64,000 nucleotides of DNA, from contig CM045759.1 of the NCBI GenBank assembly GCA_025200525.1, forward strand, positions 1,550,001 through 1,614,000, in the 5' to 3' direction. Both the position numbers and the translations under genes were made by a program. Numbering within the stretch: position 1 is the first letter of the stretch; every line of letters starts with the position of its first letter. Shown here piece by piece: positions 1-56,000 of the stretch. Below the pieces are notes generated by a model. The model worked only from the letters and a program-made list of their open reading frames with translations, was not told the DNA's origin and did no database searches. Source of the stretch: Camellia lanceoleosa. Lineage: Eukaryota; Streptophyta; Magnoliopsida; Ericales; Theaceae.

Positions 1-240
1 GGTTAGCTCAAAGATGACTTGCAATGGAAGAAGTAGGAGGCAAGAGCTCTCAAGGTATATATATGGTTTCTAGATTTTTGTTCAACCCTTAAAACAATCC
101 CAGAGCTTCGTTTTTATAGAATTCGAGCTCAAAAGCTGATTGAATTCGAATCGCTGCGAATTCATAATTCAACTTTCATCATCGAGTGTATTGAACCAAG
201 TGCCTAAGTCTTACGGGCGGCGAAAAATAGGGTGTCTACA
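1..240. mobile_element. Possible end of an LTR, truncated by the window edge
   Basis: This stretch has a more balanced base composition than the AT-rich DNA after it. It ends in GGGTGTCTACA, which resembles the terminus of some plant LTRs whose other end begins TGTAGACA. The left part lies outside the window, so neither the matching end nor a target duplication can be tested. No coding sequence is recognisable. Confidence 0.2.
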
Positions 241-6902: not shown

Positions 6903-7100
6903 TTATTTATAGTTTTTAATTTTTTTTTATAAATATATATATATATATATATAAAGTATAAATGCTAAGTAGATTTTAGGTGAATGAATAAGCTTATCAT
7001 ATCTAGTCAATAATTGCTATTTTTTTTTTTCCCAAAATTAACCAATATTTCTCACAAAATTGTGCATCACTTATACACTCATATATATATATATATATAG
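6903..7100. repeat. AT microsatellites
   Basis: Two runs of AT dinucleotides lie near 6933-6952 and 7081-7099 in otherwise unremarkable AT-rich DNA. Confidence 0.8.
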
Positions 7101-7499
7101 CAGTCATATTGTCCAAAACTTTTGTGTAGCTCTGAACCAATTCCATAAATTCTTTTTGCTCCCTAGTCTTTCAATTTGGGCTGAACTTAAAAGAAACAGT
7201 AGCATACAAAAAAAAAATGGAGGTTTTATATAAAAGGATATTTTGGAAAGATAGTTAAAAATTATTTTTGATTTTTTTGTGAGAGATGAAAGTGGGTTAA
7301 AAGTTAGGAAATGACTTTTAACCCACTTTCCAAATTAGGCCAAAATTTATACAAATAGGAATATGTTCATTTCAAACTAAAAGAGTTATCAAAGTGATTT
7401 ATTATTTAAAAATATTATTGACATATTATTTTAGTAATTTTTTTTGTAAAAATTTATGTCATATCTATCTATCTATATATCTTATATAAGGAAAAGTAG

Positions 7500-7832
7500 G
7501 GTATGTTTGGTTTGCATTTGGGAGATGAGTTTTGAAAAAAAAATTCTAAAAAATTATTTAGTTTGAGTTTTTCTCAAAATTTTTTTAAAATCACTTTCTT
7601 TCTCTTACACATCAATCAATCACTTTTTTTTTCTCATCTCTCATTCTCAATCACTTTTTCTCTTACACATATCTACTCAAATTTTTTCAAAATATCAAAT
7701 CATCCCAAACTCTCAAAAAAACAACTCTCCCAAAATATACAACCAAACAAACCAAAAAAATTTCTAAACTCTCTTTCCAAATTTTTTTTCAAAAACAACT
7801 CTCCCAAAAATAAACCAAACAAGTCCTGTGTT
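7500..7832. repeat. AT-rich element with inverted GTTTGGTTT ends
   Basis: It begins near gtatgtttggtttgc and ends near aaataaaccaaacaagtcc. The interior carries two tandem similar segments (tctcttacacatca..tcaatcactttt). The ends and the absence of coding capacity fit a small non-autonomous DNA transposon. Confidence 0.4.
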
Positions 7833-7939
7833 TTTAGCAAGGAGCCTTGTGAGAATTTTAATATCTCATACTAATTTTCTTGATTTTTTTAATTTTAAAT
7901 AATTAAGAAAATCTTCATTAGTTAGCTTTTATTTGATAA

Positions 7940-7989
7940 TCTCACATCGAAAAAAGAAGGAAAAAATGAGTTATTTTACTCATATAAAG
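7940..7989 (+). promoter_or_regulatory. USE/TATA pair 1
   Basis: The motif tctcacatcg (7940-7949) is followed, after 33 nt, by TATAAAG (7983-7989). One base differs from the core of the plant USE consensus. This is the spacing reported for RNA polymerase II snRNA genes. Confidence 0.5.
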
Positions 7990-8118
7990 GGAATCTTATA
8001 CTTTCATCCCATTTAGTGAAGAGCCTTGTGAGACTTTCAATATCTCATAATAATTTTCTTGATTTTCTTAATTTTAAACAATTAAGAAAATTTCCATTGG
8101 TTAACTTTTATTTCATAA

Positions 8119-8168
8119 TCCTGCATCGGGAAAATAAGGAAAAAATGAGTAATTTTACTCATATAAAG
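8119..8168 (+). promoter_or_regulatory. USE/TATA pair 2 (degenerate USE)
   Basis: The motif cctgcatcg ends at 8128 and TATAAAG lies at 8162-8168, again 33 nt apart. The USE core has changes relative to TCCCACATCG. Confidence 0.4.
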
Positions 8169-8184
8169 TGAATCTTATACTTCC

Positions 8185-8227
8185 ATCTCACATCGGAAAA
8201 AAAATGAGTAATTTTATTCATATAAAG
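8185..8227 (+). promoter_or_regulatory. USE/TATA pair 3 with short spacing
   Basis: The motif atctcacatcg (8185-8195) is followed by TATAAAG (8221-8227) after only 25 nt. That is close to the shorter USE-TATA distance reported for plant RNA polymerase III snRNA genes such as U6. Confidence 0.45.
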
Positions 8228-8243
8228 TGAATCTTATACTCCC

Positions 8244-8294
8244 ATCCCACATCGGGAAACGAATAAAAAAATGAGTAATTTTACTCATATAAAG
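8244..8294 (+). promoter_or_regulatory. USE/TATA pair 4 (perfect USE)
   Basis: ATCCCACATCG (8244-8254) matches the plant USE consensus RTCCCACATCG exactly. TATAAAG is at 8288-8294, 33 nt downstream. No snRNA follows; the downstream DNA is AT-rich. Confidence 0.55.
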
Positions 8295-8490
8295 TGAATC
8301 TTGTACTCCCATCCCATTTAATATTATAGTGTTGTGTATATTTTAATTTAATATAGTCTAAATTTTTAAAATTTTAATTAATTAATTATGACCTAGGTGA
8401 TTAGTCTAAATCATTTTTAAATTAATTGATTTGTTAATTTTGTATGAAATTTTGAAACTCTCATAATATTTAACTTTAAAATAATTATAA

Positions 8491-8548
8491 TTTCACATCG
8501 AGAAAATAAAGAAGAAAAAAAAAAGTAAGTTGTTTTACTTATATAAAG
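8491..8548 (+). promoter_or_regulatory. USE/TATA pair 5 with long spacing
   Basis: The motif tttcacatcg (8491-8500) and TATAAAG (8542-8548) are 41 nt apart. The extra bases look like expansion of an A-rich run. Confidence 0.4.
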
Positions 8549-8556
8549 TGTTACAA

Positions 8557-8604
8557 ACTCACATCGAGAAAAGAATGAAAAAGTGAGTTGTTTCACTTAT
8601 ATAA
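8557..8604 (+). promoter_or_regulatory. USE/TATA pair 6
   Basis: The motif actcacatcg (8557-8566) is followed by TATAAAG (8598-8604) after 31 nt. Confidence 0.4.
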
Positions 8605-9360
8605 AGTGAATTTTATACTTTCATTTAATATTATAATACTGTGCATGTTTCAGTTCAAGATAGTTTAAATTTTAAAATAAAATTTAAAAGTTTTAATAAA
8701 TTAATTTTGTTATAAATTGATTGATCTTTTGACTTAGCCAATTAGGCTGAATCGTTTTCGGTTTAACTGATTCATTGGTTTAACCATAGTTTTAGATGTT
8801 TTTATCAAAATATATTGTTTAGATTTGTTTTATTTGAAATAAATTAAGATTGACCTTATTAAAAATTGAACGACTGCGATTGCTTGATTAAAAATAAATT
8901 TCCCGTCCAAACAACTAATAACTTTTATTTTACAATCTTATATTAGAAAAAGGAGAAAAAAAATGAGTTGTTTCACTATATAACATTATGCTCCCATTTA
9001 ATATTGTAGTGTTGTGTATATTTCAATTCAAAACAGTTTAAATTTTAAAATTAAAATATAAAATTTAAAAGTTTTAATTAATTAATTTTTGTATAAGTTG
9101 GTTGGTCCTTTAACCTAACTGATAGGGTGAACCGTTTTTGGTTTAACTAATTCGTTGGTTTAACTGTGATCTTAGCAGTTTTATCAAAATATATTGGTTG
9201 AATTTGTTTGATTCGAAATAAATTAAAAATTGACCTAATTAAATATTAAACGGTTTAGATTCCTTGATTCGAAATAAACTTCATGCCTAAACAATTATTA
9301 ACTTTTAAATAATTAAGAAAATTCTCATTGACTAGCTTTCATTTAACTTTTATTTTATAA

Positions 9361-9410
9361 TCTCACATCGAGAAAAGAAAGAAAAAGTGAATTATTTCAC
9401 TTACATAAAG
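9361..9410 (+). promoter_or_regulatory. USE/TATA-like pair 7 (TATA decayed)
   Basis: The motif tctcacatcg (9361-9370) is followed after 33 nt by CATAAAG (9404-9410), a one-base decay of TATAAAG. A further weak copy lies near 8941-8980. Confidence 0.35.
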
Positions 9411-9504
9411 CGAATCTTATGCTCTAATTTATATAAACAAAAAGAGATTTTTAGTGAGAAACCTTATGATCAATATCTCATACTAATTTTTTTGATTTTC
9501 TTAA

Positions 9505-9677
9505 GGGTTCGTTTGGGAAGGGCTCCCGGGCTCAAAGAGCCACAAAAAACAAAATAGGCTCATGAGCCACAAAAAACAAAATATCACATCCAACCCCATA
9601 ATCATTACACTCTTCTCTCACAAAAAAAGCCAAAAAAGCCAAAAAGCCAAAGAGCCAGCCCACTTCCCAAACGGAGG
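9505..9677. mobile_element. Tourist-like MITE inserted in the USE array
   Basis: The 173-bp element has ends GGGTTCGTTTGGGAAG and CTTCCCAAACGGAGG. CTTAA occurs on both sides (9500-9504 and 9678-9682), containing the 3-bp TTA/TAA duplication of Tourist elements. The sister repeat near 8060 reads cttgattttcttaattttaaac without the insert and gives an empty-site comparison. Related copies lie at 28215-28455 and from 62853. Confidence 0.75.
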
Positions 9678-10170
9678 CTTAATTTTTAAACAATAAGAAA
9701 ATCCTGATTAGCTAACTTTCATTTAATTTTTATTTTACAATCTCATATAAAAGTTCTGATTTTAAAAATAATTTTGTATGAGATTTTAAAACTCTTATAA
9801 TATCTCTCCTTAAAAGTATTTTTTCAATAAAATATATAGATATATCGATAATCTTAATGTTACTCTTACTGCTCTTTAATACAAAAATTATGAGATAATT
9901 ATGATAATTTTAAATTTGTATTTAAAACTTATAAATTATGAGATAGAATATTATAATTTTAAATTTATATTGTACCGATTTTAAATTTAAATTAATAGAT
10001 TGCTTTTCATATTTAGTGGCAGTTTAAATTTTAATAAAATAAAATTTAAAAAATTTTAATTAATTTATTTTTATGTAAATTGGTTGGTCTTTTGACCTAA
10101 CTGATTAAGCTAAATCATTTTTGGTTTGAATAATTTACTGATTTAACTGTGATTTTAGCAGTTTTACATA

Positions 10171-12908
10171 TTACGATAATTTTTTCTTACTCATTAAATT
10201 TTTAAAATTTCTTTAATTATTTCCCTTTCAAAAATCAATACGATTTCTATATACCTTTTATAAATTGAAACTAAAGATTTGCCAAGTGAAAACGGACAAT
10301 TATCCTCTGATTTGATTGGTGATCTGTTTTAATTCTTGCAATATTTTGTGCAATAGCAACACTTTAACCCCTCCATAAATCTATATGGTCATGAATCTTT
10401 AGCATCATATAAAATAACAAAATTATACTTAAAAAAAATCTGCAATTATAAAATGTGAATTAAATTCATTATAATTACGATTTATATTAAAATAAATTTA
10501 AATTTACATCATAAATTTACCTTTTCAATATTTTATTAAACTAGTGATTGTGTCTTGTGTGGCATTTTAAATTTTTGTTTTTTTTAATTATAGTAAAAGC
10601 TGTATAATAGTGTATAAATATATAATTGCGGAATATAAAATCATGAAGTCACAGCTTACTTTTTTTTACTAGTACATGAGCACATGGGTGTAGCATGAAA
10701 TCAGAGAGAAATGACCCACAAACCACACCAGCCATCCATTGGATTTCCAATTTCATGGTGAGCAAAACGATGACCTTGCCAATGGATTTTCAGAGTCAGA
10801 ACTGTCTGTCATTCCATGTGTGAAATTGGATAAACCCCAAACCCATAAAATTAGAAAGATTATTGGTTTAAAATTATTGAGCCTGTATTTGGTTAAGGAA
10901 TTTAAGAAAAAATTAAAAAAAAAAAGAGAAAAAATTGAGTAAAATTAGGTAAAATATAAATATATTTTATTTATAGTTTTATTTTTCTTTTTTTTTTCTA
11001 TTTTTTTTTTTCTAAATTTCTCAACCAAACATAATTTAAAATTATTTTTTCTTAAATAATCTTTTATAAAAATATATAAGTGAATAGATACAACGATATA
11101 TAGAATATATGAATGTGAGATAAAAAAAAATGTTCACATTTATAATTATCAACATCTTGTCTTATGTTCGTTCTGTGTCTTGTTCTCCATGAACAATTGA
11201 TTTTTTATTTTTATTTTTTTTATATATAAAAATTGCTATGAGTTCTACTTTAACTACTTCGAATTTATTGTAAAAGAAAGTTTGTGATTGAGATTAAATT
11301 TGTGTGATATGAATTTTACGTGTAGAATAAATCTAAATTACAATATTGATGATTTTGGATATAATTTTTGGGTCTATATTTATAGTGTTAGTGTTTTTGT
11401 ATAGTTGAATTTTTGTTTTAAAGTAACTATCACTTTGTTTGATTATGGCTTTTAGAAAACAGTTTTCAAAAAATTTGAATTTTTTATTTTTCGTATTTTA
11501 ATATTTTCAATTAATTTTTTTAAAATATTTTAATAAATTATTTTTATTTTTTAGACACATTTAACATAAATACACTTAAAAAGTATAATATTTGTGAAAA
11601 AAATCTTTAAAAAATACACTAAATACCAAAAAATACAAAAAAAATATAAAAGTTCAATACATTTTTCATATTTTGTGTATTTATTAATTTTTGAAAATAT
11701 TTTTCACAAATATTTTACTATTTAGATATATCTAAGTAAGCTGAATATAAAAAAGTAAAAAAATTGCTTAAAATTTTAAAAATATTCACTAAAAATAAAA
11801 AAATCAATTTTTAAAAAACTGAGTTAAAAAAACTGAAACCAAATACATTTTGTAGTATTATTGTACTATTATATTAGTACTATCATATCTTCAAATTTTA
11901 TAGAATTAAATCTTAATCGTTCAACAAAATTTAATTTAAGTTCGGTTTGGGAATTACTATTTGGGGTAAAATAGTCAATAAAGATAAAATAAGTTAAAAT
12001 AATTAATAAAAAATATCACATCTAACTCATCATCATTTTATTTTTTTTCTCACAACCATCAATCAAATATAAAAAAACTAACTATATTTCCAAATACAAC
12101 TTTTTTACCTAGATTAAAAGCCAATAAACCAAAATAGTCAACTTCCAAAAGAAGCCTTAATGCTGTATTTGATTGTGGGATTTGAGAAGTAATTTGGAAA
12201 AAAAAATATAAAAGGTAAAGGTAGGTGAAAGGTAAAAATAAGGAAAATATACATATATTTTACTTAATTTTACATATATTTTTTATTTTCTTTTCTAAAT
12301 TTCTTCTTAAATTCTCAAATTAAACCCAACGTAAAATATTCGAATTCAAGACTTTTACTTTGTCCCACTTTTTTACTTTATATTTTTTTAAACAAATGTT
12401 TCTAGGCATAACAACAGACAAATACTTAAGCCTATTGCGAGAAATAATAATTTTAGTAAAAAAAATCACTATATAAAAGTCATTTTTTCCTTTTATTTTT
12501 ATTTTGTCTAAAAATCATTAAAAAATTCAATTCACAAAATAATCTTTAATTTATTTTTTAAAAAATGTTTAACATTTTTGTTAATGAGTGCCAAATACTC
12601 CTATTATTATTTAAACACTATTAACCTACATTTTTACAGCCCTATCTGCTATTTTGTTAAGAAGGTTAGAATAATAATATAGTCTTTATAATATGTAATA
12701 ATTATACAATTATTTAAAACTTCCTCATCAATATATAATTTTTTTGATTAGCAATTAATGAATGCATTTAAGATCCTTTTTAAAATAAGGGTAAACAATA
12801 ATGCTTGTGATCCTCACAATTTTTAATTAATTTGTGACCACTCATTATTTTTTTTTCCTCTCTTTTTCCTCTCTCACTCACAAAATGTGTGTGGGTGTGG
12901 GGTCTCTA
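10171..12908. other. AT-rich intergenic DNA
   Basis: It holds one member of the ~430-bp dispersed family (about 11440-11850). A slightly less AT-rich patch at 10680-10860 is unique in this window but codes for nothing I recognise. The rest is low-complexity A/T sequence. Confidence 0.5.
11440..11850. repeat. Dispersed ~430-bp MITE-like family, copy 2
   Basis: It begins near cactttgtttgattatgg and ends near aactgaaaccaaatac. Internal segments such as taaataccaaaaaatac and tatatctaagtaagctg match the copies at 4275-4711 and 43736-44160 in the same order. Confidence 0.5.
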
Positions 12909-30997: not shown

Positions 30998-31587
30998 TGA
31001 TGATACAAATAATATACAACGGGTACCTGGTAGAACGGGTTGGACTGATCCACGTTTCTCGTGCATATATCCGAGTGATCAAACCCACCAATGAACCTGC
31101 AGACAAGTTCAACGGGGAACGGGGAGACCCCCAGTGAACCCTCCGACGAGTAAGTTAGAAAGAGAAGTAGAGTGTAGAAAGAGATTGGAGATAGAAAGCT
31201 TAACCTTCTTCTTGTCTTCAACGTCTGTTTATATCCTTTGGTAATCATTTCGCCATCCCTTCCAACCTGCCACCTTAGCCGAAAGTCTATGCTGTAGCTT
31301 ACCTTGTTCAGGGTGAGGGGGTGCTGTTCCGACGGAGAGGTGTTGTCGTAATAAATGCTGTGATGGGCTGCATTAATGGCGATGTGCAGTGACAATAACT
31401 TTGCAGATCTTTGTTTGCTTATGTGACTTGTTCTTTACCTGTCACATGTCTGAATATCATTGGTTCTTCGTGCCATGTTGGCTTCTAGCTGTTCAGGATC
31501 TCATCATTTGGGTTATGTGTTGGGCTCTAAGTGATGGGCTTGGGTTGTTCATAGTGGGCTATGACCTTTGTGGGCCTAACCACGTCA
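30998..31587 (-). repeat. 3' LTR of the Tat element
   Basis: It starts TGATGATACAAATAATATAC and ends CCTAACCACGTCA in plus-strand reading, matching 41404-41992 over its whole length with about 30 differences, mostly transitions. Confidence 0.93.
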
Positions 31588-31605
31588 GTAGTCCCCCATT
31601 CCCAA
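31588..31605 (-). other. Polypurine tract of the Tat element
   Basis: On the minus strand tgggaatgggggactac lies directly before the 3' LTR, the position and composition of a plus-strand primer for reverse transcription. Confidence 0.65.
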
Positions 31606-31649
31606 GTGCAGCTTTAGCCCAACGAAAGGAATACTAATGGAGAAGATGA

Positions 31650-31995
31650 GGAGGATCGACTGCGAAGGGTGGCCGAGTGGAAGGACCGACCATGAAGAGG
31701 ACCGACCGCGAAGGGTGGCCGAGTATATGGGCCGACCATGAGGAGGACCGACCGCGAAGGGTGGCCGAGTGGGAGGGCCGACCATGAGAAGGACCGACCG
31801 CGAAGGGTGGCCGAGTGGATGGGCCGACCATGAGGAGGATCGACTGCGAAGGGTGGCCAAGTGGGAGGGCCGACCATGAGAAGGACCGACCGTGAAGGGT
31901 GGCCGAGTGGATGGGCCGACCATGAGGAGGATCGACAGTGAAGGGTGGCCAAATGGATGGGCCGACCATAAGGAGGACCGACCGTGAAGGTTGAG
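31650..31995. repeat. 46-bp tandem repeat in the element's 3' region
   Basis: The core gaagggtggccgagt recurs at 31664, 31710, 31756, 31802, 31848, 31894 and 31940, with a truncated copy at 31986, always 46 bp apart. Between cores lies gggccgaccatgaggag or variants. Because 46 is not a multiple of three and the unit lacks minus-strand stops in every frame, three overlapping minus-strand open frames arise as an artefact. Tandem repeats in the 3' untranslated part are known for Tat-lineage elements. Confidence 0.92.
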
Positions 31996-32192
31996 GTGGG
32001 GGGGCGTGGGGCTCAAGAGGTGGCGTGTCACGTGATGACTTGAAGTGGAAAAGACAGGGTAAGGGGAGGTGGCAATGAATCGTGATCGTACACGTGGCAG
32101 CATCTCGTGGGGAGGGAGATTAGGCGTTGGGCCAAAAATGAAATGATAGGTCATGATGCGTGTTGAAAAGACAGTTTTGGCGGATGTTTTGA

Positions 32193-34841: not shown

Positions 34842-35966
34842 TTGAAGAAGAAGAAGAAGACCTCGTACTTAGAGTTGTTTTTGTGTGTTTGTTTTTGTTA
34901 TTATTATTTTTTTTTGAAATGCTGTAGTGAACTTATGGACAAGTTTGTGAATAAATAAAATTGCAATTGTGTTTTCATTCGATTGTTGTTGCTTACGCAT
35001 CCAAAATGAATAAGAATGGTGGTTTGTGTGTAAAGCTTGTGTATAAATCGTTGTGAGAATCTCAATATAAATTGAAGTTGAACTTGTATTAAAAACTCAG
35101 TGCAGAGTGAAGTTTAAAATGGAATAAAATTCCAAGTGTGTTTGCCACACTGCTGAAGTGAATGAGAGTGGTTTATTAAAGTTAGGCTTGACTTGTAAAG
35201 AAAGAGGTTGACTTGCAAATGTTGATAAATAAGAAAATAAAAGAGTGTTGGTAAGAATGTCAAAGATGTGAAGTTTCAAATTATGTCCAAAAATGAAGTT
35301 GTAGATCAAGTTGTAAGAGTATTGGTAAATAAAAGATTAGTTTGGAATTTGACCAAGTAAGGTGTAAAAACATGGACCTGGAATTTTGCCCAAGTAAGTC
35401 TACTAATGCCATAAGCATAAAGTTTGCTTGAATGGCTTTGACCGAGCTCTACATGTGTGCTCAGTTGGGGTTAAGTTATGATTCACTGACTATGCAAATA
35501 ATTCAGTAGCTTGAAGTAACTCAGTCTTGCTCTGACCGAGGCGTTTCATGCTCAGTCTGGACGAGCTTTTCCTGGTTGGTCAGCCTGAGGCTGTAAGCTT
35601 TTTGTCGCTCGGTTTGGACGAGGCTTTTGGTGCTTAGTCTGGCTGAGGCTTTTTGTCGCTCGGTCTGGCTGAGGCTTTTGGTGCTCAGTTTGGCTGAGGC
35701 TTTTTGTCGCTCGGTCTGGCTGAGGCTTTTGGTGTTCAGTCTGGCTGAGGCTCTTAGTGCTCAGTCTGGCTGAGGCTTTTTATGGGTGCTGCAATCAAAA
35801 TGTTATGAAGACACCATATAAATAACTGAGATATAAAATTGTTGTCATGAAGAGTGTAGCCCAGTTGATCAAAGATTTACACGATGTGAGGGGAGAACAG
35901 AGATGTTCAAGTGTGTAAATTTGTCGAAAAGAAAATACAATAACTAAGCAATACAAAAGTAGGAAC
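34842..35966. other. Non-coding 3' region of the Tat element between extra ORF and integrase
   Basis: It contains A/T-rich spacer plus the short tandem repeat described at 35560-35785. No ORF of note. Confidence 0.55.
35560..35785. repeat. 25/26-bp tandem repeat
   Basis: Units ggctgaggctttttgtcgct and ggctgaggcttttggtgctc alternate, each extended by cggtct or cagtct to 25-26 bp, for at least seven copies. It is a second, unrelated tandem array inside the same retrotransposon. Confidence 0.8.
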
Positions 35967-36860
35967 TTATTGAAAGTAATGCTTCAAGTGTTCGGCGTTC
36001 CACGGGTGAGGGAGTTCTCGACCTTCCATGTCCTGAAGTCGGTAAGTGCCTAGTCGTGGTCGGGCTTTCACAACGTAAGGTCTCTCCCACTTGGCTGCCA
36101 GTTTGCCCTCAGTCGGATTTTTGGTGGCAAGGGTTACTTTGCGCAAGACAAGGTCCCCCACAGCGAACTCCCTTGATCGGACTTTGCGGTTGTAGTGTGT
36201 TCTCATTTTCTGTTGGTATGAGGCCAGTCTGATAGCAGTGGTTTCTCTGAGCTCTTCGATTAGGTCAAGGTTTGCCCGACGGAGTTCTTCGGTTAGTTCG
36301 GGATTCGGATGTAAAACCCTTGCAGTAGGCAGACTGACTTCCACTGGGATGACCGCCTCAGCGCCGTATGTTAAGTGAAAGGGGGTCTCCCCAGTGGGAG
36401 TCCGAGCGGTAGTACGGTAAGCCCAGAGTACATTTGGCAATTCCTCAGCCCAAAGTCCCTTAGCAGCTTCCAATTTAGTCTTGATGATCTTCAGAAGGGA
36501 ACGGTTGGTAACCTCGACTTGGCTATTGGCTTGGGGATGACCTAGGGAGGAGAAACATGGTTGGATTTGGAGGTCTGCACAGAACTTCCTATACTTGGAG
36601 TTGTTGAATTGTTTGCCGTTGTTGGAGACGATGACTTGAGGGATGCCAAACCTGCATACGATCGATTGCTAGATGAATTTGGTTGTGTTCCGCTCGGTAA
36701 TGGTAGCAAGGGGTTCTGCCTCTACCCACTTGGTGAAGTAATTAATGGCGACAATTACGAACTTGGTCTGGCCTCGGCCGGTGGGCAGTGGACCAACTAA
36801 GTCGATCCCCCATTTGGCGAACGGATAGGGACTGCAAAGTGTGATCAACTCTGTAGGAGG
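35967..36860 (-). pseudogene. Integrase of the Tat element, inactivated
   Basis: The minus strand reads KWGIDLVGPLPTGRGQTKF (first catalytic Asp present), later VIVSNNGKQF where the second catalytic Asp, usual in SDNG, is Asn, then GHPQANSQVEVTN with the catalytic Glu. A TAG stop breaks the chain in ..TTKFI*QSIVCRFG.. near 36667-36672. The C-terminal part (36473-35967) is open: MEAAKGLWAEELPNVLWAYR.., ..FHLTYGAEAVIPVE.., ending EHLKHYFQ. The loss of Asp and the stop make it non-functional. Confidence 0.8.
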
Positions 36861-36959
36861 AGCATGGGGGATATTGGCAAAACGCTGACACGTGGATTTC
36901 CCACATCACATAGGTTGCTTGAGCTGGATTGAGGCATCGCAGATACGAGCATGAAAAAC

Positions 36960-37464
36960 AACATTTGTACAAGACACCACTGATGAGGATGTAATTGGAC
37001 GACCGGGCCCTGACTTTGATGGCCTGCTGTTGGTCATCTAGAAGGTCTTCCGTTGTCAAAAATAGGAAGATGTCGGACGCCCAAGGGATGGGTTCATTTT
37101 GGAGGAACTGCACTTCTTGCTGGTTGGGAGAGATGGCAGGGTGGACTAGGTATTCGAGGCGGACACCATGGCTGAGGTCGGATTGGTCTGCAGAAGCTAG
37201 CTGAGCTATCTCATCTGCCGTAAAGTTTTTCGTCCGAGGGATGTGCTTGATGTGGAAGGTATTGAAGAGGCGAACAAGGGGGAGTGTAATATCCTTGTAA
37301 GCCCGCATTGTATCATCCTTGGCATTGAATTCCCCCGTAATTTGTTCGACAATGAGCTGGGAGTCACTGAACACTCGGATGTGGCTGACACCGATGTCCC
37401 GGGCTAAGCGGAGACCTGCTATCAATGCCTCATATTCGGCCTTATTGTTACTGGCTTCGAACAA
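36960..37464 (-). pseudogene. Second (archaeal-type) RNase H domain of the Tat element
   Basis: The minus strand reads ASNNKAEYEALIAGLRLARD, then HIRVFSDSQLIVEQITGEF, the pattern of an archaeal-type RNase H with its Asp/Glu residues (EYEAL, FSDSQ). This duplicate RNase H after the retroviral-type one is characteristic of Tat-lineage elements. Its upstream join to the pol frame is broken by a frameshift near 37464. Confidence 0.75.
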
Positions 37465-39145
37465 GAAACGGAGAGCACATTTGAAATAACCACCCTCAAG
37501 GGCGGTGAGGATGAGACCATCCCCACTGCCTTCTCTGCAGGATGATCTGTCGACGTTGAGGGTCCAAGAGTGGGGGTCCTCTGGCTTGGCGGGGGTGGAG
37601 GGGCTGTGGTTGGGGTAGGGTTAGTGAATTCCAGGATAAAATCGGCAACAGCCTGCCCCTTAATTGCTGTTCGAGGTCGGTGGGAGATGTCAAACTGGCT
37701 GAGTTCTACTGACCACTGCATGAGTCTGTCGGAAAGTTCTGGTTGCTGTATGACCTTCTTCAAAGGTTGGTCGGTGAGGACCACTATGAAATGGGCTTGG
37801 AAGTAAGGACGGAGTCGTCTGGAGGCGGTGACCAGGGCCAAGGATAGTTTTTCTAACAGTGGGTAATTCTGCTCCGCTCCCCTGAGAGCCCGACTGATAT
37901 AGTAGACCGGCCGCTAGATAGAGCCGTCTTCCCTGATAAGAGCTGCACTGACTGTGGTGCTTGAAACGGCTAAGTAGAGGAAGAGGGGTTCGTCCGCGAT
38001 TGCCTGAGAAAGGAAGGGAGGGTTGGCCATACACTGCTTCAACTGTTGAAAGGCCTTTTCGGATTTGATCGTCCATTCAAAAGTTTGTCGAAGAACTTTG
38101 AAGAAGGGAAGGCACTTATCCGTTGCGCGGGAAATGAAGCGGTTGAAGGCGGTTACTTGGCCAGTGAGTCTCTGAACCTCCTTAACCGTTCTGGGTGACT
38201 GCATTTCAATCAAGGCCTTGATTTTTTCAAGGTTAGCTTCAATGCCGCGCTGACTGATCATGAAACCCAAAAACTTCCCAGATCCTATGCCGAAGGCGCA
38301 CTTCTCCGGTTTGAGCTTCATTTGGTACTTATGTAGGGTGACGAAGGTCTTTCGTAGGTCGGTCAGATGGTCAGCAGAGAGTTTGCTCTTGACGAGCATG
38401 TCGTTGACATATACGTCGACATATACTTTCATATTTCGACCTATCTGATGATGGAAAACAGCATTGACCAACCGTTGGTAGATGGCCCCAACATTTTTAA
38501 GTCCAAATGGCATCACATGGTAGTGGTAGGTACCTCGGTCGGTAATGAAGGAGGTGTGTTCTTGATCAGACGGGTGCATCAGAATTTGGTTGTACCTAAA
38601 GAAAGCATCCATGAAGCTGATCATTTGGTGACCGTCCGTGGCGTCGACTAGCAGGTTATGCGAGGAAGAAGATAGCTATCTTTGGGGTAGGCTCGGTTGA
38701 GGTCGGAGAAGTTGACACAGAGTCACCATTTGCCATTGTTCTTGCGGACTAGGACCACGTTTGATAACCATCTAGGGTAGTCCACGTTTTTGAGGAATTG
38801 GGCCTCAAGGAGCTTATCAACCTCTGCAGCAATAAGAGTATTGCGCTCTGGATGAAAGATGCGCTGCTTCTGGCGGTAAGGTCGGAAATGGGGTTCAATG
38901 CTGAGGCGATGTGTTATGAAGGAGGGGTCAATACCCGACATGTCTGAATGGGTCCAGGCAAATACATTATTGTGCTCGGTCAGGAGGGCAGTAAGGTCGG
39001 CCTTGGCTTGGGGGGATAGTTGGCTGCCGATTTTGGCAGTTTTGGTTGGGTTGGTGGGGTTGATGGGAACCTCAACGAGCTCCTCTACAGGTTCTCCTCT
39101 GACCAGCTCGTCCTCATCTCGGACGTCAAGTCCTTCAATGATCAT
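37422..39145 (-). pseudogene. Reverse transcriptase and RNase H of the Tat element, inactivated
   Basis: The segment 39145-38723 reads through ..SGIDPSFITHRLSIEP.. to RKNNGKW and then meets TGA. A second lesion, a one-base loss, lies near 38655-38660. From 38624 the frame continues ..MPFGLKNVGAIYQRLVN.. and ..VNDMLVKS... The catalytic box is YVND instead of the usual Y(I/V)DD, so one essential Asp is Asn. Later come FLGFMISQRGIEAN and the tether FILEFTNP (37841-37422) with retroviral-type RNase H. The mutations, several of them C-to-T or G-to-A, show the enzyme is dead. Confidence 0.85.
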
Positions 39146-39167
39146 AGCTTCCTTCAGCTTGACTTCC

Positions 39168-39560
39168 TTAAGTGAGGTGACATAACACTACTGGCCGATG
39201 CCTTTTTCCCTTCTTGTCCGGCCTGTGTCGATTGGGGAACTTTATGGCGAGGTGGTAGGTTGATGTGATAGCTTGGAAAGCATTGAGGGCAGTGCGACCA
39301 ACTATGATGTTGTAGGTAGAGGGACAGTCGACAACAAGGAAGGTGAGCAACTTTGTGGTCTACCGTGGGTACTCGCCGATGGTGATGGGGAGATCGATGG
39401 AGCCGATGGAGGTCACCCGGTCGCCAGTGAAACCGACCAAAGGGGTTTGGAGGGGAGACAGACTTTCCTCCCCAATCTTGAGCTAGCGGAAGCAGTTGAG
39501 GAATATGATGTCTGAGGAACTATCGTTGTCGATGAGAACTCGTCTGACCTTGTAGTTGGA
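39168..39560 (-). pseudogene. Aspartic protease region of the Tat element
   Basis: The minus strand reads VRRVLIDNDSSSDIIF (39555-39500), aligned with the usual VDTGSSADIL, so the catalytic Asp is kept but the next residues are altered. Later it reads [20 protein letters not shown] (39350-39270), typical of the end of Tat protease. Stops separate the pieces. Confidence 0.65.
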
Positions 39561-39939
39561 GAGGAGGGCAAAAATGACGAGAGGGTCATCATGTGGGTAA
39601 TGGATGCCTGTACAGTCGGCGTCCGTGAAGGTGATAGGCTCGGTCACTGTTTGGGCTATTTAGAGGGTCGGTCCACCGTTGCCATTGCCTTGTCTGAGCC
39701 TTACCTTATCTTTTTGAGTTTTGCCCTCTGAGCCGAGCGGGATGGTCCGCCACAAGCAAGGCCACCTGAAATAACTCGGATTTCTCCAACTGGTGGAGGG
39801 GGATTACCTGGCGGCCGAGACTGTTGCGGAGGGCGATCATGGCCCTGGTTAGGTTGAGCAGGCCGCCGGGGTGGGGTGCGTCGGCGATTGTTTCTGAGGG
39901 GCTCGGTTCTTTGCCTCTGCTGAGGGCGGGTGTCCGTGA

Positions 39940-41199
39940 ACCGGCTAAGACGTCCCTGATGTATTAGGGTCTCGACCTGATCCTTAAGATTAACACACTC
40001 ATCGGTGTTATGGCCGTGGTCCTAGTGAAAACGGCAATATTTGGACTGGTCTTTCCAGTTGGAAGGGGTTCGCGATGGTTGGGGCTATTTGAGGGGGTAG
40101 TCCCACTGGATCTGATTGAGGACTTGTTCCATGGGGGAGTTTAAGGGGATGTACCGCTCGAACTGACCGGGCGGTCGGACTTGGGCCGACCGATCAGTTC
40201 TGGGGGGTCGGTTGGTATAGTGGAGTGTTTGACTATTATACTGGGTGTTTCTAGGTTCTGAGTTTTTTTGCTTTTCTCTGGGGGTCGGTTTTTGGTTGTT
40301 GGATCTTGCTGGGCAACTAGGGAATCTTCAGCGTTTATGTATTTTTTGACTTTGGAGAGTAGGGTTGCCATGGAAGTCGGGGGGTTTTTGGAGAGGGAGA
40401 AGAGGAAGTCGGACGACCGCAGACCGGCCATAAAAGCCGTAAGGATGACCTTGTCATCGTTTTCTGCCACCTGCAAGGCTTCGGTGTTGAAGCGAGTAAC
40501 GAAGCTGCGTAGGGACTCCCCCTCGGTCTGACGGATGTTGAGGAGTTGGGTTGCCGGGCGGCGTTGGCGCTGGGCTTCAATAAAATAGCTGAGGAAGAGT
40601 CGTTCGAGTCTTTGGAAAGTGGAGCAGTCTCGGTAATGGTTGAACCATAGTCGAGCTGATCCCTTTAGTGTCACGGGAAAAGCTCGACACATGATCTCGT
40701 CAGAGAAGGAATGGAGGATCATGAGGGTTCGGTAGATCTCCAGATGGTCAACTGGGTCCGTCGTACCGTCAAAAGAGTCAATGGTGGGCATTTTGAACTT
40801 GGGGGATAGGGGTTTGTCCCGGATGGAGGCAACAAATGGTAAGTTGGCCATGGTAGAGGGTTTATGTTGGATGTTCTGTATGACCTCTTGGAGTTGGAGC
40901 TTCATGGCTCGGAGTTCTGCGTCCCAGAGAGGGATGTTGTCACCATCGGAGGCGTGAGGATCGACACTCTTGGCTTCCCTTGGGGTTGGTGCGAGATCGG
41001 CGAATCTTGAGGATGGAGGTGATGGATTTATATGTGGGGGTGGAGGTTGCAAGCCTTCCAAGTTGGGTGGATAGGGCTGCGGGATAGTATGGCTCGGGGC
41101 TCGTTCTTGGTTAAAGGGAATATCTAGAGGTGGTGGAGGAGGCATAGGAAGGTTTCTCTGGAGTAAAGCATTTATCAGGGCTTGGTTTTGCTCGGCCAT
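39940..41199 (-). pseudogene. Gag polyprotein of the Tat element
   Basis: ATG at 41197-41199 starts MAEQNQALINALLQRN and the frame stays open to 40141 (352 codons). A Pro-rich N-terminus is followed by the retrotransposon gag core (FDGTTDPVDHLEIYRTLM, FPVTLKGSARLWFNHYRD, LNIRQTEGESLRSFVTRF). After a stop the nucleocapsid remains visible near 40050-39990: KYCRFH*DHGHNTDECVNLK, a CCHC zinc knuckle interrupted by TAG. Length and order fit Tat elements. Confidence 0.85.
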
Positions 41200-50000: not shown

Positions 50001-53000
50001 CAGCTTCTCAACCCTAAAACACAAGAATAAAGTTGTAAAAAATCTGAAAAGTGATAATATTTCTGGTATAAAGTATGGCAACAATACAATACAAATTGAA
50101 GCACAGTTAATTCCCTGAGTGCTAAGGCTCTCCACCAGAGTTATTAAGTTGTATCTTCTTCATGTGTGATATATTAAAAGTTCTCTTTCTTTCAGAAATT
50201 TAGGCTCTGTTTGGAAGAGCTTTGGAATTGTAATTCCACCTTAGTTTGCACGTGATGTTTGGTTGTAGTTTTCAAAAATTAATTCTACATCCACTTTTGA
50301 AAACTCTTTTCCAGACGAAAAAATTTGGCTAACCCGGTTGTCCTCCCAGACGTCTGGCCGGTTGACCAGAACAATGTACGTTTTTTTTTTTTGCACCTAT
50401 TATTTTTATATTTTAAATAAAAAATACTTCCAGAATTTTTTTAAAATTTTTTATGAGCTTTGAATAAGATTTTGGGTTGTGTGTTTGATTATGAATTGTA
50501 AGTTTTTGAATTAAATATCATATGTTACATCATTCATTTCAAACTCAATTCAAAACTCTTTTCAAAACTCATAATCAAACAAATTTTCCATACTCAAATC
50601 ATAATTCCAAAACTCACAAACTCAAAATACAACTCTATTTTCAAATCATATTTAGAAAATTCTACCAAACGCTACCTTAATCTTCTCCAGTTAGTTTTCA
50701 ATAAATAAACTACAATTTATACTTTTAATGTGAAGAGAGAAGAGAGAACCTCCAGTAACTTAATTTACCTTTGAAACAAGGGTCGTTCAGCAATACGCAG
50801 AAACGAGATAAGCCTATCAGTCAAACTCATAGCACCACGCATACCCCCCCAAAGCAAAGCAAATTTACCAACCATCCTCAACATGCCACCCTTTTGTGCA
50901 AATTCTGTCAGCATCGCCACCAGCCTGAGTGGACAAGGAGAACTGTGAGAATATCAAGGGAAATCAGTATTTATGTGTTAATTAAACAACTGACCAGACC
51001 TGTCATGATCCACTTCGCCATCTTCTTTCATAGGTACCACAGGACCAGCAACAGACATGGCTTTCTCTGCAAGGCTTGTGACCATGCCATTCTGGTTTTT
51101 CTCAGATATTTCCTCCTCGAGCTTGTCAGGCTTCTTCTGATGATTTCCTTTCTCCTCCAAGGACTTGGACAAGCTTTTAGAAGTTTCATTAACTTTGGCT
51201 GAATCCTTCAATGCCCATAAATCACCAACAAACATAAAGACCCAACAAGAAAAAAAAATACACAATGGCACAACCTAGCATGCATCATTATTTATGAAGA
51301 GTTGTTGATGCTGTTCCAGTTAAGACCATAAAGTTTGAGCAAATAACTTCCTTGAATTTAACAAGGGGTAACGTTGAGAGAGGAAAACTTTCAAGACTTA
51401 TTAATATGACAAACTGTAGAAGAGGAAGACAGGAAGAAGGCCAAACTTTGTGAGGCAAAATAAGAAATAATCTGAAAGGGCTTAGTTCATTTCTGTCCAA
51501 GAAAAGTGAATACATGCACAAGATTCAATGACCAAAATGAGAAGGATAAATTGGGTGGCAGTTTTCTTCGAAAGTCAACAGTAAACACATTGAGGGAAAA
51601 GTTAAAAAGGAAGATGTGAAGAAGAAGGCAATGAAAAATTACTCCTAGACAGTTTAGAATGTGCCAGTGTTGTTGGCCAAAAACAGTAAGGCCATTAATG
51701 TAATCTTTCATTTCAGAAAATAACAAACATGACAGTCATGTAATATCAATACTGCATTTTCTAAGTAAATGACACCACTTTCACTCCTTTTTATTAATTG
51801 AAGCAACTTCACACTTTACATGTGCATCAGAACAACTTGCAAGAAATCTGAACAAAGTCATAGTTATTTTGGGGCGATAAGAGACACCCTCTGATGAACT
51901 TGACACAGATAAAATATCCAACTCACTTGTGAGGAATGATATCCCAAAATTTGTCATCATAGGAGCAGGTTAAAAGAATAATACATAGTGTGAAGGGATC
52001 TAAGTGTCACCTGTTGATGCACCAACAAAGCTGATGCTCCCAGGGCAGCTGTAACAGCACCAATCATGACAGAACCATTGTTTAGTTTTTTTAATTCATC
52101 CTTTTCCTCATCTCTGCTTCTGGACAAATTGTAGTTCAGATTGATTTTATTACGAAGCAGTCGATCAGCCTCTGTCTCAAATAGTCGAGCACCATTTCTT
52201 TCCACAGAATGATTAATTTGATCAAGGGCCATGGCTTCACTTTGGTCATTACCATTTACTGTTTCTACATTGAAAAATTTTCTCAAAGCAGCTAAGCAAG
52301 AGCCTACAACAACACCAACTGGGAGTACTCTTGCCAAATAATTGGTTTCCTGAACAGCTAAATAAATAGCCTTTATTATATGCTCTCCATGAAGCGTACC
52401 TATTTTTTCCGAATGATTGTCTTTACCATCCAAAAACCATGTATGATCCTTCCCATGTCCTGCAGCCAGAGACACCACCTTTGCAATTTCTTCCATATCT
52501 CTGGCAAGATTGGGCTCTATCTCTTTCGTGTTATCTGTACTTAGCCTTCGACCCACTTCGACCTTCAATGAATCCAGTACAATATTCTTAACAAAGCTCA
52601 TCACCTCTGAGTCTGATGTTTCATTACCAATTACAAGTTTTTGATTCGAGTTGCCCACTTTCTCATATTCTTGATCTTGAACGGGCTCCTCTTGTTTTTC
52701 AGCATCCATTATAACATATGGTGGTTCAATAAATTCGTCTGTATCTGATTTTGAAGGTGAATGAGCCTGAATATCTTTGTTGGCACCTTCATGAGTAGCA
52801 ACATCACTGGCAGAATCTTCATTATTTCCAGATAGTTCCAAGAACTTCCACTGATCTTCTTCTGGAAAATAGTCGAGAAATAAAGCAGTAGTTGTATCTA
52901 AGTCTAGTGATTTGGTATTTGGCATCTTCGAAAGAAGATATTTACGGAGGAATTCCTTGTAAAGAGAGTCACCATATGGGTTTGTAGTTATAAACAGTGG

Positions 53001-56000
53001 AACATTATATAAATGCCTTATATTTGAATTCTTGGCCAAAAGGTTGCTGCTTACCAAAAGTTCCTTTGTTCCATTTTCCTCCTTACTTTCCCCCTTAAAT
53101 GGATCAGGGCTTCCTATAAGTCTCTCCTTGTCTGGCCATCTGGTTCTCGCATCATTATGTGAAACCGTTCTATCATATGAAGGAAGGTCATCTACCATGT
53201 CAGACTCTGAGCTCCGGTCATTTTTATTTTCTTCTTTCCTTGTTGAGTTATAGTCATTAATGACTTGATGGTTCTCAGGTATAGAGCCAATTCTCCTGTC
53301 CTCAACCTCTTTCTTATCAACTTTAGTTTCATTGTCTTTCTTATCATCAACTTTAGTTTCATTGTCCTTATCAACTTTAGTTTCATTGTCTTTTTCCTCC
53401 TCCATCTGAGTAATCATATCTTCTATTGCACCAAATACGCTGTTAACAGCCACTTGTGTGGAATCATCTATCCCTGTCAAGGTACTAAATGCCTGAGAAA
53501 CACTGAAGGTTGGGGAATCAGAGCTGTTTTGATTCAAAACAGAATGTGTACTGTTTTCCTCCCTTTTCTGATCATCATTTCCTTCGCTTTCCATTGGTTG
53601 GGCATCTCCTTCGCTTTCCATTGGTTGGGCCTCAGAAGATGGTACTGGATGTGACAATCCTTCCTCTGTCATGTTGGATGACATGTTATTTTGATCAGTA
53701 GAACAATTTGTTACTTTTTCTACATTCTCCTGGATATTGTTCTCCTCTTTCCTTTCAAACTTAGCTAGTCCACCATTCTGGTCCACGATGTGTAGGTCAA
53801 CAGTTGCATCCTCACTGCCACCAGGCCTTTCAGACTGGCTGGGAAAATTAGGCTTAGCAACAGTCTCTGACCCATTTTCATTAGAGTCAGGATATTGAGC
53901 AGCTCTTTCTGTAGACATATCCACATTTTCCTGATCTTTTTCCCATTCAACAGTGTCCTTTTTTCCTGAACTGGAGATGTCACCTCCTTGGGTATTTGAT
54001 TGAAAGTGACCACTGTCAGTGTTTTTTTGTAGTGTCTCTGAAGTCTGAAGCTCTGATTCCAGGCCCCCAGCAGGCCTGTCCACAGAAACTTGATTATCAG
54101 TAGAACTATCTGTCAGGTCCTCAACCCTATTGCTTAGATCTGAAGAATGAGGATCTTCATACCCTCCACAACTTGATAGTTCAACATTTTCCTGGATCTT
54201 TGACTTTAATCTGGAAGCCACATTAGGTATCCGATTGATATTCAGAAATCCATCAAGTTTAAAATTTGTTCCCTGATTATGCAAAATTTCAGAAACAGCA
54301 GTTGTAAGCTTGCCACGAACATCCTCAGGCACAGCATCTTGCAAAGCTTTCACAACTGTCTCTCCTTGGCCCACAGCCATCAGGACCTAGACACAAATGA
54401 CAAAAAATTGTGATAAAAATTCCATAATTTTTTGACAGCATAATTATACTTTATCCATTAAGTAGCTCACAGAATCATTTTAAACCAAGTCCTGTGGATC
54501 CAAATATGCAAGTATATCAAAGGAAATTCATTAAGACATGAGACATTCTTAAACAGCTCATAACAGTATTGATGAGACAATTTTGAGTTCTACAAGGTGA
54601 TACTTCATAATTATTATTACCCAGAATCCCTACTCCTTGAAAAAAATATACAACTTTTATTTCTGAACTCATCCTAATGAAATGCCAAGCAGAATCTCAC
54701 ACCACAACATGGAAGCATCATACAAGGAGAGAGAAACAAACTCTATTTTAATTTTTCTCCATAAGGGTAGCACTCTCTAGGACCTATCTATACAATTCTA
54801 CATCAGCCATTTGACCAATATCACAACAATGAAAATAATTTCTTTCAAGGAAAAAGATATTGGCACCAAGGAGTTCAAAAGTGCCAGGCAGTCATTCTCA
54901 CCACCACAAGAATAATTTTGAAACACACTATGATATTACAAAAAAAAAAAAAATTACAACACATAACCTACAATGATTTCTATAGATATAGGGGGGAAAA
55001 ATAATGACATGATATGAAACCAGTTAACAATAAAAAATGTTTTAGCATTAACTGCAAAAATATAGAACTGCTACAGGTTTCATGGTTTCATATTTCATTT
55101 TATGCACACAACATACAGAGCATGTAAAACTAAACATTATTAACTGAAATACAATATATTGAAGATCAGTATGCAACTAATAAAGCAATACCTTCTGCTT
55201 CTGTTCTTCAGTCAGAGTACCAGGCATGGTCACATCAAGCATATTCATAGCCACTTGTGCAGTTTGGAGCACTTGGCCTCTTTCATCATCTATAGGATTG
55301 CCTTCCTCCTTGACTAATACCGCATCAACAGAGCTAGCCTGCTCTAATGTACCATTGCTCTTTTGTTGCAATCCTCTATCTTCAATTTCAGGATTTCTCT
55401 GTGAATCATGTCTGAATCTTGAACTGATGCTAGCTGAGATATCACTTTCTCCAAGCCTCTCCTCTAAAGGATATGAAGAATACCCATTTAAAACATTTGA
55501 CTGGGAAAGATTCAGCAGTTTGTTTACTCTACCACTTTTATCAGATGCTGTGCCTTCCACCCATGCTAAACCTTTTGAAGGATTGAGGGTAACATCGACA
55601 TCTTTCAAAAGAGGATGGCGGCCTTTTAAAAGTCCAAGTTCCACACCTGCAAGCCACTGCACATACCACATGCATACTCATAACATTGACAGTTGCACAA
55701 GTGATATTTACATTGGCCAAAATCCTAGTATACCACTATCAAACATTCCATTCCATATCAATAAAACCAGAAGATCATTACACATGGTGATGGTGGCGAG
55801 ATCAGTATCACACATCCAGACACACATCATTCCAACAATACCAAGATAACTGAAATAGGCATAAAATGAAATTCGTTTTCCCAAGAAAATAATTTTTGAA
55901 AATATTGGTACTCCTTCAACCCCAAATAACTAAGTACTCCAATAGTTCTTTTACTTCAATACAAAATTGACACATCAACACTAAAAACAAACTTAGGATG

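Follow-up and report, generated by a model that had tools for sequence, protein, structure and literature searches.

An array of promoter-like modules on the forward strand of the Camellia lanceoleosa genome probably represents a small nuclear RNA (snRNA)-type promoter that was acquired and multiplied by transposons. The array spans positions 7939-9410 (+ strand) of the window, i.e. the whole 64,000-nt stretch of contig CM045759.1 that was analyzed. This interpretation is based on sequence comparison, from which we infer promoter activity. A transposon carrying the promoter of a small RNA gene would be of a known kind; its upstream, snRNA-type form appears to be what is new. A sequence-only reading of the window had described an array of snRNA-type promoter modules that may be a transposon carrying a promoter or a source of unknown short transcripts, an interpretation that is partly supported by the results presented here.

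Seven motifs resembling the plant upstream sequence element (USE) start at 7939, 8118, 8185, 8244, 8490, 8556 and 9360 (7939-9370, + strand), each with a TATAAAG-like box 3' of it. Counting from the end of the USE to the start of TATAAAG, five of the seven pairs (7939, 8118, 8244, 8556 and 9360) are separated by 33 nt, while the gaps of the other two amount to 25 nt (8185) and 41 nt (8490). The sequence-only reading had counted four pairs exactly 33 nt apart, which is true for TATAAAG; a fifth, at 9360, exists with CATAAAG instead. It had also placed (T/C)CACATCG in front of all seven boxes, which holds for six of them but not for 8118, where the motif is ATCCTGCATCG (2 mismatches to the USE) and reads CTGCATCG. 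The one perfect USE that it had reported was found at 8244, while most modules in the window are decayed. The array contains the following features:

7939-7989, + strand: module 1, USE at 7939-7949 (1 mismatch), 33 nt, TATAAAG at 7983-7989
8118-8168, + strand: module 2, USE at 8118-8128 (2 mismatches), 33 nt, TATAAAG at 8162-8168
8185-8227, + strand: module 3, USE at 8185-8195 (1 mismatch), 25 nt with a shorter A-rich spacer, TATAAAG at 8221-8227
8244-8294, + strand: module 4, perfect USE ATCCCACATCG at 8244-8254, 33 nt, TATAAAG at 8288-8294
8490-8548, + strand: module 5, USE at 8490-8500 (2 mismatches), 41 nt with a longer A-rich spacer, TATAAAG at 8542-8548
8556-8606, + strand: module 6, USE at 8556-8566 (2 mismatches), 33 nt, TATAAAG at 8600-8606
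8656: 3'-box-like CAAGATAGTTTAA, 3' of module 6
8938-8985, + strand: eighth module, decayed and with no recognisable USE, identified from the window repeat families D6 and D7 together with the sequence
9360-9410, + strand: module 7, USE at 9360-9370 (1 mismatch), 33 nt, decayed box CATAAAG at 9404-9410

Since module 4 is the only one in the window that keeps a perfect USE together with its box, residual activity, if any, would most likely be located there. Between the USE and TATA of this module lies a perfect 8-bp inverted repeat (ATGAGTAA-TT-TTACTCAT, 8271-8288), which reaches as far as the initial T of the TATA box and is less perfect in several other modules. The modules at 8185-8227 and 8490-8548 are each 8 nt off the 33-nt gap, and the 25 nt of the former is near the host U6 spacing.

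In the whole window YCACATCG occurs 8 times against 1.07 expected, a number that was reached in 0 of 100 shuffles, and 6 of the 8 copies lie inside the array. A USE with at most 2 mismatches followed by TATAAA at exactly 33 nt was found four times on the + strand of the region 7000-10500; such pairs were found in none of 1000 first-order simulations of this region and in none of 60 simulations of the whole window. Pairs at a fixed distance are thus indeed not expected at random, as had been argued earlier, but the repeated distance was inherited by duplication. The window modules are tandem and dispersed duplications of one unit (with steps of 179, 59 and 67 bp among others), some of them running directly into the next repeat, so that the seven pairs do not represent independent events. 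Independent evidence is provided by other element families of this genome and by the snRNA genes of the host itself.

In the host genome, the pattern TCCCACATCG-32..35-TATA-20..45-ATACTTACCTGG was matched at 12 places (control 0). At these twelve U1 starts, assigned by their first 12 bases only and limited to those U1 genes that fit the search pattern, the distance from USE to +1 is 65-66 nt by coordinates. The spacing of USE and TATA in the array, which the sequence-only reading had called snRNA-type, matches the geometry of these twelve starts. A search for host U6 genes listed 47 matches, nine of them at top score. Perfect GTCCCACATCG was present 54-55 nt before +1 in all 10 upstream regions taken from eight of these nine and from the next two matches. 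Nine of these regions have a TATA-like box that follows the USE at 24-28 nt, and the tenth (L066) has GATAAAG. The USE of U6 lies ~11 nt closer to +1 than that of the twelve U1 starts. This difference agrees with the literature on Pol II and Pol III snRNA genes, which, in the accessible part of the source, gives RTCCCACATCG as USE consensus and places the USE of Pol III snRNA genes one helical turn nearer to TATA than in Pol II genes (PMC9845283). One perfect USE with a U2 start 68 nt downstream was found as well; a TATA at exactly 33-34 nt was looked for at this single U2 start and not found, so that the matching geometry is demonstrated for U1 only. The array shares with plant Pol II snRNA promoters (U1, U2, U4, U5) the USE RTCCCACATCG and a TATA at the spacing of the twelve host U1 starts, but differs from these genes by the lack of an snRNA body and by its tandem modules inside a transposon-like repeat.

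Genome-wide, TCCCACATCG-33/34-TATAAAG was found 572 times (308+264) and the reversed control 0 times. With 28-29 nt between TCCCACATCG and TATAAAG only 12 matches were obtained (control 1), and with 38-39 nt only 19 (control 0). In these searches, where reversed patterns and neighbouring spacings served as controls, the 33-34 nt spacing thus outnumbers both neighbouring spacings tested, in line with the earlier claim. The wider pattern of TCCCACATCG, 15-45 nt and TATA gave 6826 matches (2815+4011; reversed control 239), a count in which a single USE may be included more than once. Reading 76 of the 572 strict matches by hand revealed 56 Helitron-type modules and 20 of a divergent-pair type. 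Among about 100 matches listed for the wider 15-45 nt pattern, covering the first 59 Mb of one contig, 85 with distinct USEs fell into 17 spacer clusters. The commonest gap to the first TATA was 24-27 or 31-36 nt in 15 of these 17, bands that were fixed after viewing the list, and some of the clusters are possibly related. Among the 100 USE/TATA matches listed in another search, a gap of 24 nt occurred in 20, of 33 nt in 23 and of 34 nt in 10; the sorting of these 100 by regular expression was rough and left some Helitron-type modules as 'other'. Matches of the L008 type (GGTTCGAACCCCACATCGAG) were rejected as USEs and resemble, by eye, a tRNA-like B box.

A single chance match in A/T-rich repeats, copied many times, would also yield large numbers of pairs. 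Indeed, all window modules are copies of one another, the element is A/T-rich and most of the strict genome matches that were read belong to the family of the array. However, such a coincidence is made extremely improbable by the absence of a 33-nt pair from the 1000 simulated regions, by the 572 matches against 0 for the reversed pattern, and by the occurrence of 15 of the 17 spacer clusters in two snRNA-like bands, although bands set post hoc and clusters that are perhaps related temper the last of these.

With a profile made from the seven window modules, 315 matches were found in the fetched loci, 183 of them distinct. The consensus of these 183 modules consists of a perfect USE ATCCCACATCG, 33 nt and TATAAAG; because these loci had been selected for their similarity to the window, it describes the family and not the genome. 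Copies elsewhere thus retain, in consensus, both the USE core and the 33-nt spacing, the two properties on which the sequence-only reading had made its interpretation depend. Both motifs were matched in 67 modules, and in 38 of these the gap between them is 33-34 nt. Of 156 distinct USE contexts (at most 1 mismatch) in the fetched loci, again chosen by likeness to the window, 119 have a downstream TATAWA, which is 31-36 nt away in 79; an upstream TATAWA, taken as control, is present in 25, where minor peaks were seen at 8 nt (10) and 35 nt (7). The two bases following YCACAT in 102 modules are CG in 48, CA in 20, TG in 18, TA in 10 and others in 6. Module copies therefore show ordinary CpG decay, as is the case for neutral copies, without visible constraint.

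The carrier of the array looks, by its sequence features, like a non-autonomous Helitron. Helitrons are characterized by a 3' hairpin followed by CTRR, a 5' TC, and insertion between A and T without duplication. A search of the genome (3.0 Gb, 790 contigs) with 7833-8330 as query yielded 2819 first-look candidates, 40 of which were scored, and at least 86 matches; the best ones after the window itself cover query positions ~1-358 at 86-91 % identity. The array thus lies in a dispersed transposon-like family, in line with the earlier suggestion that it may be a transposon. Two or more USE/TATA pairs were present in each of the 16 copies that were retrieved with long flanks, a count that is partly circular because these copies were picked by likeness to the window. 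The copy in the window is built up as follows:

7462-7499, + strand: element 5' end (TATCTATCTATCTATATATCTTATATAAGGAAAAGTAG), resembling the left end of copies at other loci
7500-7829, no strand assigned: nested MITE-like insertion (approximate borders) that bears imperfect inverted repeats close to its ends
7830-9504, + strand: main element body with the module array; copies of 7833-8190 occur genome-wide at ~86-91 % identity
9505-9678, no strand assigned: second nested MITE-like insertion, flanked by TTAA at 9501-9504 and 9679-9682
9679-10180, + strand: remaining part of the element, end approximate; 9850-9999 is matched by 4-6 of 33 loci and homology stops near 10180

The window copy is interrupted by these two insertions, the first of which cuts off the left end at 7462-7499 from the element body. 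This insertion, with an inverted repeat (7504-7561 and 7764-7821) that is 74 % complementary, is matched by 0 of the 33 loci carrying the element, and the adjoining stretch ~7450-7499 by 11 of the 33. At 9550-9649 coverage by other element copies falls to 1-2 of the 33 loci. A Helitron 3' hairpin was looked for in the window copy and not found, and the copy therefore appears to be 3'-truncated.

A recognisable left end of the type TATATATTATATAAGG is present in 15 of the 16 long-flank copies (the exception is L053), ~130 bp before the first module and in many copies preceded by, or merging with, a TCTA microsatellite. Right ends differ among the fetched copies. L042 contains a head-to-tail junction in which a 3' end with hairpin and CTAG (CCCGTGCATAGCACGGGTGATATACTAG) immediately precedes the next left end. 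Similar versions of this 3' end were found in L041 and L050 (hairpin and CTAG) and at L051:2997 (CTAA), and the base following CTAG is T in L041, L042 and L050. What precedes the 3' end in L041 and L042 corresponds to the tail of L045, a locus that carries a left end as well as a decayed form of the same 3' hairpin. Related loci appear to resemble known non-autonomous Helitrons in the GC hairpin, the CTAG 3' end and the head-to-tail copies, whereas the element differs from them by its internal array of snRNA-type promoter modules. In L051 three Helitron-type 3' ends (594, 1150 and 2997) occur within 2.4 kb as a head-to-tail array, each directly followed by the apparent 5' end of another element; those at 594 and 1150 belong to a different family from 2997. 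Elsewhere in the window, a tandem array of a 46-bp GC-rich unit (31646-31990, 7.5 copies) overlaps a - strand open frame (31585-32154), and - strand open frames at 35589-41199 resemble, by eye, gag and pol fragments of an LTR retrotransposon; this gag/pol-like region includes a tandem repeat of 51 bp (35589-35780). For the protein encoded at 51957-54380 (- strand), the nearest named relative is from Camellia sinensis (84 % identity, 98 % of the query covered).

Rfam revealed no snRNA or other family over the gathering threshold in the window, confirming the earlier remark that no snRNA follows the array, nor did it reveal any in nine further loci. In the region 7400-10300 the best weak matches had E values of 0.47 or worse and none was a spliceosomal snRNA. 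A hidden snRNA or other RNA gene was thus rejected for the window and the nine loci, and the array is not classed as an snRNA gene, as the snRNA body was looked for and not found. The plant snRNA 3' box is described as CA(N)3-10AGTNNAA in the accessible part of the source (PMC5079582). Sequences of this kind follow 18 of 24 C-type, 0 of 16 A-type, 1 of 12 next-USE and 22 of 78 other modules, with a chance expectation of 5-12 % per 100 nt. Since chance alone would give one ancestral sequence such a box in 5-12 % of cases, the 3' box is not counted as support for a promoter. A gene under the control of the modules was likewise rejected for L039, L041 and L042, where the downstream sequence resembles the LTR of another retrotransposon; in L041 and L042 this LTR-like sequence is followed by TGGTATCAGAGC, i.e. 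a nested insertion.

The pair of USE and TATA was also found in dissimilar element families. These loci were picked from match lists partly for fitting the gap, and thus indicate that dissimilar carriers exist, not how frequent they are. L070 represents a Cassandra element, in which GTCCCACATCG-24-TATAAAAG occurs twice, 364 bp apart, and a primer binding site (TGGTATCAGAGC) lies at 262. Its box A and box C are exact and 18 nt apart, the distance given for the 5S-like boxes of Cassandra in the accessible part of the source (PMC7215508). L049 contains a solo LTR of the same Cassandra family; Rfam gave no 5S match in this locus. In the LTRs of both (L070:1-461, reverse strand; L049:6822-7067) a U6-type USE/TATA pair precedes the 5S-like region, and the gap is exactly 24 nt in all 20 rows sorted as Cassandra among the 100 matches listed. 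L071 and L072 are TRIM-like LTR starts (TGTTGGAATG... and TGTTGGGACA...) in which the USE begins within the first 15 bases and TATA follows 26 nt after it. L005, L055, L057 and L058 belong to a repeat family with divergent USE/TATA-like pairs on opposite strands, with gaps of 32-34 nt both ways, GACGTCGTTTG-like sequence near the pairs and GAGCCGAGCTCGAG-like sequence downstream. Further sequences with a 33-nt gap are L056, L059 and L073.

The strongest rival to acquisition and use of the promoter by transposons is its passive capture. Helitrons capture host sequence, and one of them may have taken up an snRNA promoter, or part of some other element that contained such a promoter, which was then passively multiplied and never used by the element. 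The decay of the module copies without visible constraint, the lack of an RNA gene downstream and the modules that run straight into the next repeat would all fit such a passenger. A non-autonomous Helitron, moreover, requires no transcript of its own to move, so that selection for a promoter is not obvious. However, 38 of the 67 modules that could be read retain 33-34 nt although the A-rich spacer has undergone indels, and repeated passive capture explains less well why dissimilar families carry the pair at snRNA-like spacings. Taking all of this together, we regard a mere passenger as rather unlikely, and the recurrence in dissimilar families at two snRNA-like spacings argues against passive capture as the whole story.

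It could also be speculated that a different factor reads CCCACATCG in transposons, as an ordinary enhancer or core-promoter site, and that the match to the USE and to the snRNA spacing reflects convergence. In L070, L071 and L072 the motif is found at, or close to, the beginning of LTRs, a position at which an ordinary Pol II promoter would be expected. A study on Asteraceae, moreover, took the TATA boxes of Cassandra-like TRIMs, situated 48 nt from the 5' end of the LTR, as Pol II signals (PMC10853983). The match to the full 11-nt consensus and the two spacing bands, which correspond to host U1 and U6, render a different factor improbable.

Acquisition of an snRNA-type promoter would place the array beside other elements with promoters of small RNA genes. 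Cassandra TRIMs likewise are small mobile elements using such a promoter, and the LTR studied here also has GTCCCACATCG-24-TATAAAAG. Cassandra differs, however, in being an LTR element whose promoter is internal and 5S-like and whose spacing is U6-like; the array does not belong to an LTR element, and its spacing is longer and Pol II-like. The TRIMs Helenus and Ajax are likewise non-autonomous elements that took their promoters from small RNA genes (tRNA and 5S); these promoters are gene-internal (PMC10886601), while that of the array is of the upstream snRNA type. The terms 'upstream sequence element', 'snRNA' and CCCAC have 0 occurrences in PMC10886601, and CCCAC, CACATCG and 'upstream sequence element' have 0 occurrences in the Cassandra papers PMC10853983 and PMC7215508. 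In the literature covered by our search, to which subscription papers mostly do not belong, no description was found of USE-type promoters in plant transposons or of a Helitron with an internal array of snRNA-type promoters. It is conceivable, and suggested here tentatively, that several classes of plant mobile elements independently adopted the host snRNA promoter code. Helitron-type and divergent-promoter elements would then have the spacing of Pol II (U1-like, 33-34 nt), and Cassandra and other TRIM-like LTRs that of Pol III (U6-like, 24-26 nt).

The preferred scenario for the array is as follows. The ancestor of the present, decayed element would have been a non-autonomous Helitron-type transposon carrying one plant snRNA-type Pol II promoter, i.e. 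the USE ATCCCACATCG, 33 nt and TATAAAG. This module would then have been multiplied by tandem duplication within the element and by transposition across the genome. In intact copies SNAPc and TBP are predicted to bind, with Pol II starting ~65 nt after the USE and short non-coding transcripts as the putative product. The pair may recur in other families because it gives elements transcription via a housekeeping pathway.

To our knowledge, the transposons known to use a promoter from a small RNA gene mostly have an internal Pol III promoter (tRNA, 5S, 7SL). An upstream snRNA-type promoter with polymerase-specific spacing would, if true, constitute a different route, namely expression through SNAPc, in dividing cells generally and outside ordinary enhancer control. 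The reading predicts hundreds of start sites that can be tested (572 strict modules), and the natural spacing variants in the array (25, 33 and 41 nt) allow study of the rule for Pol II or Pol III choice. The modules could give rise to new small RNA genes. They could also be misleading for annotation and for searches for CRISPR promoters that rely on USE plus TATA. If the snRNA code was indeed widely adopted, expression of these elements would be tied to SNAPc and the genome would be full of latent snRNA-type transcription units, of which the Helitron arrays would be the most multiplied form here.
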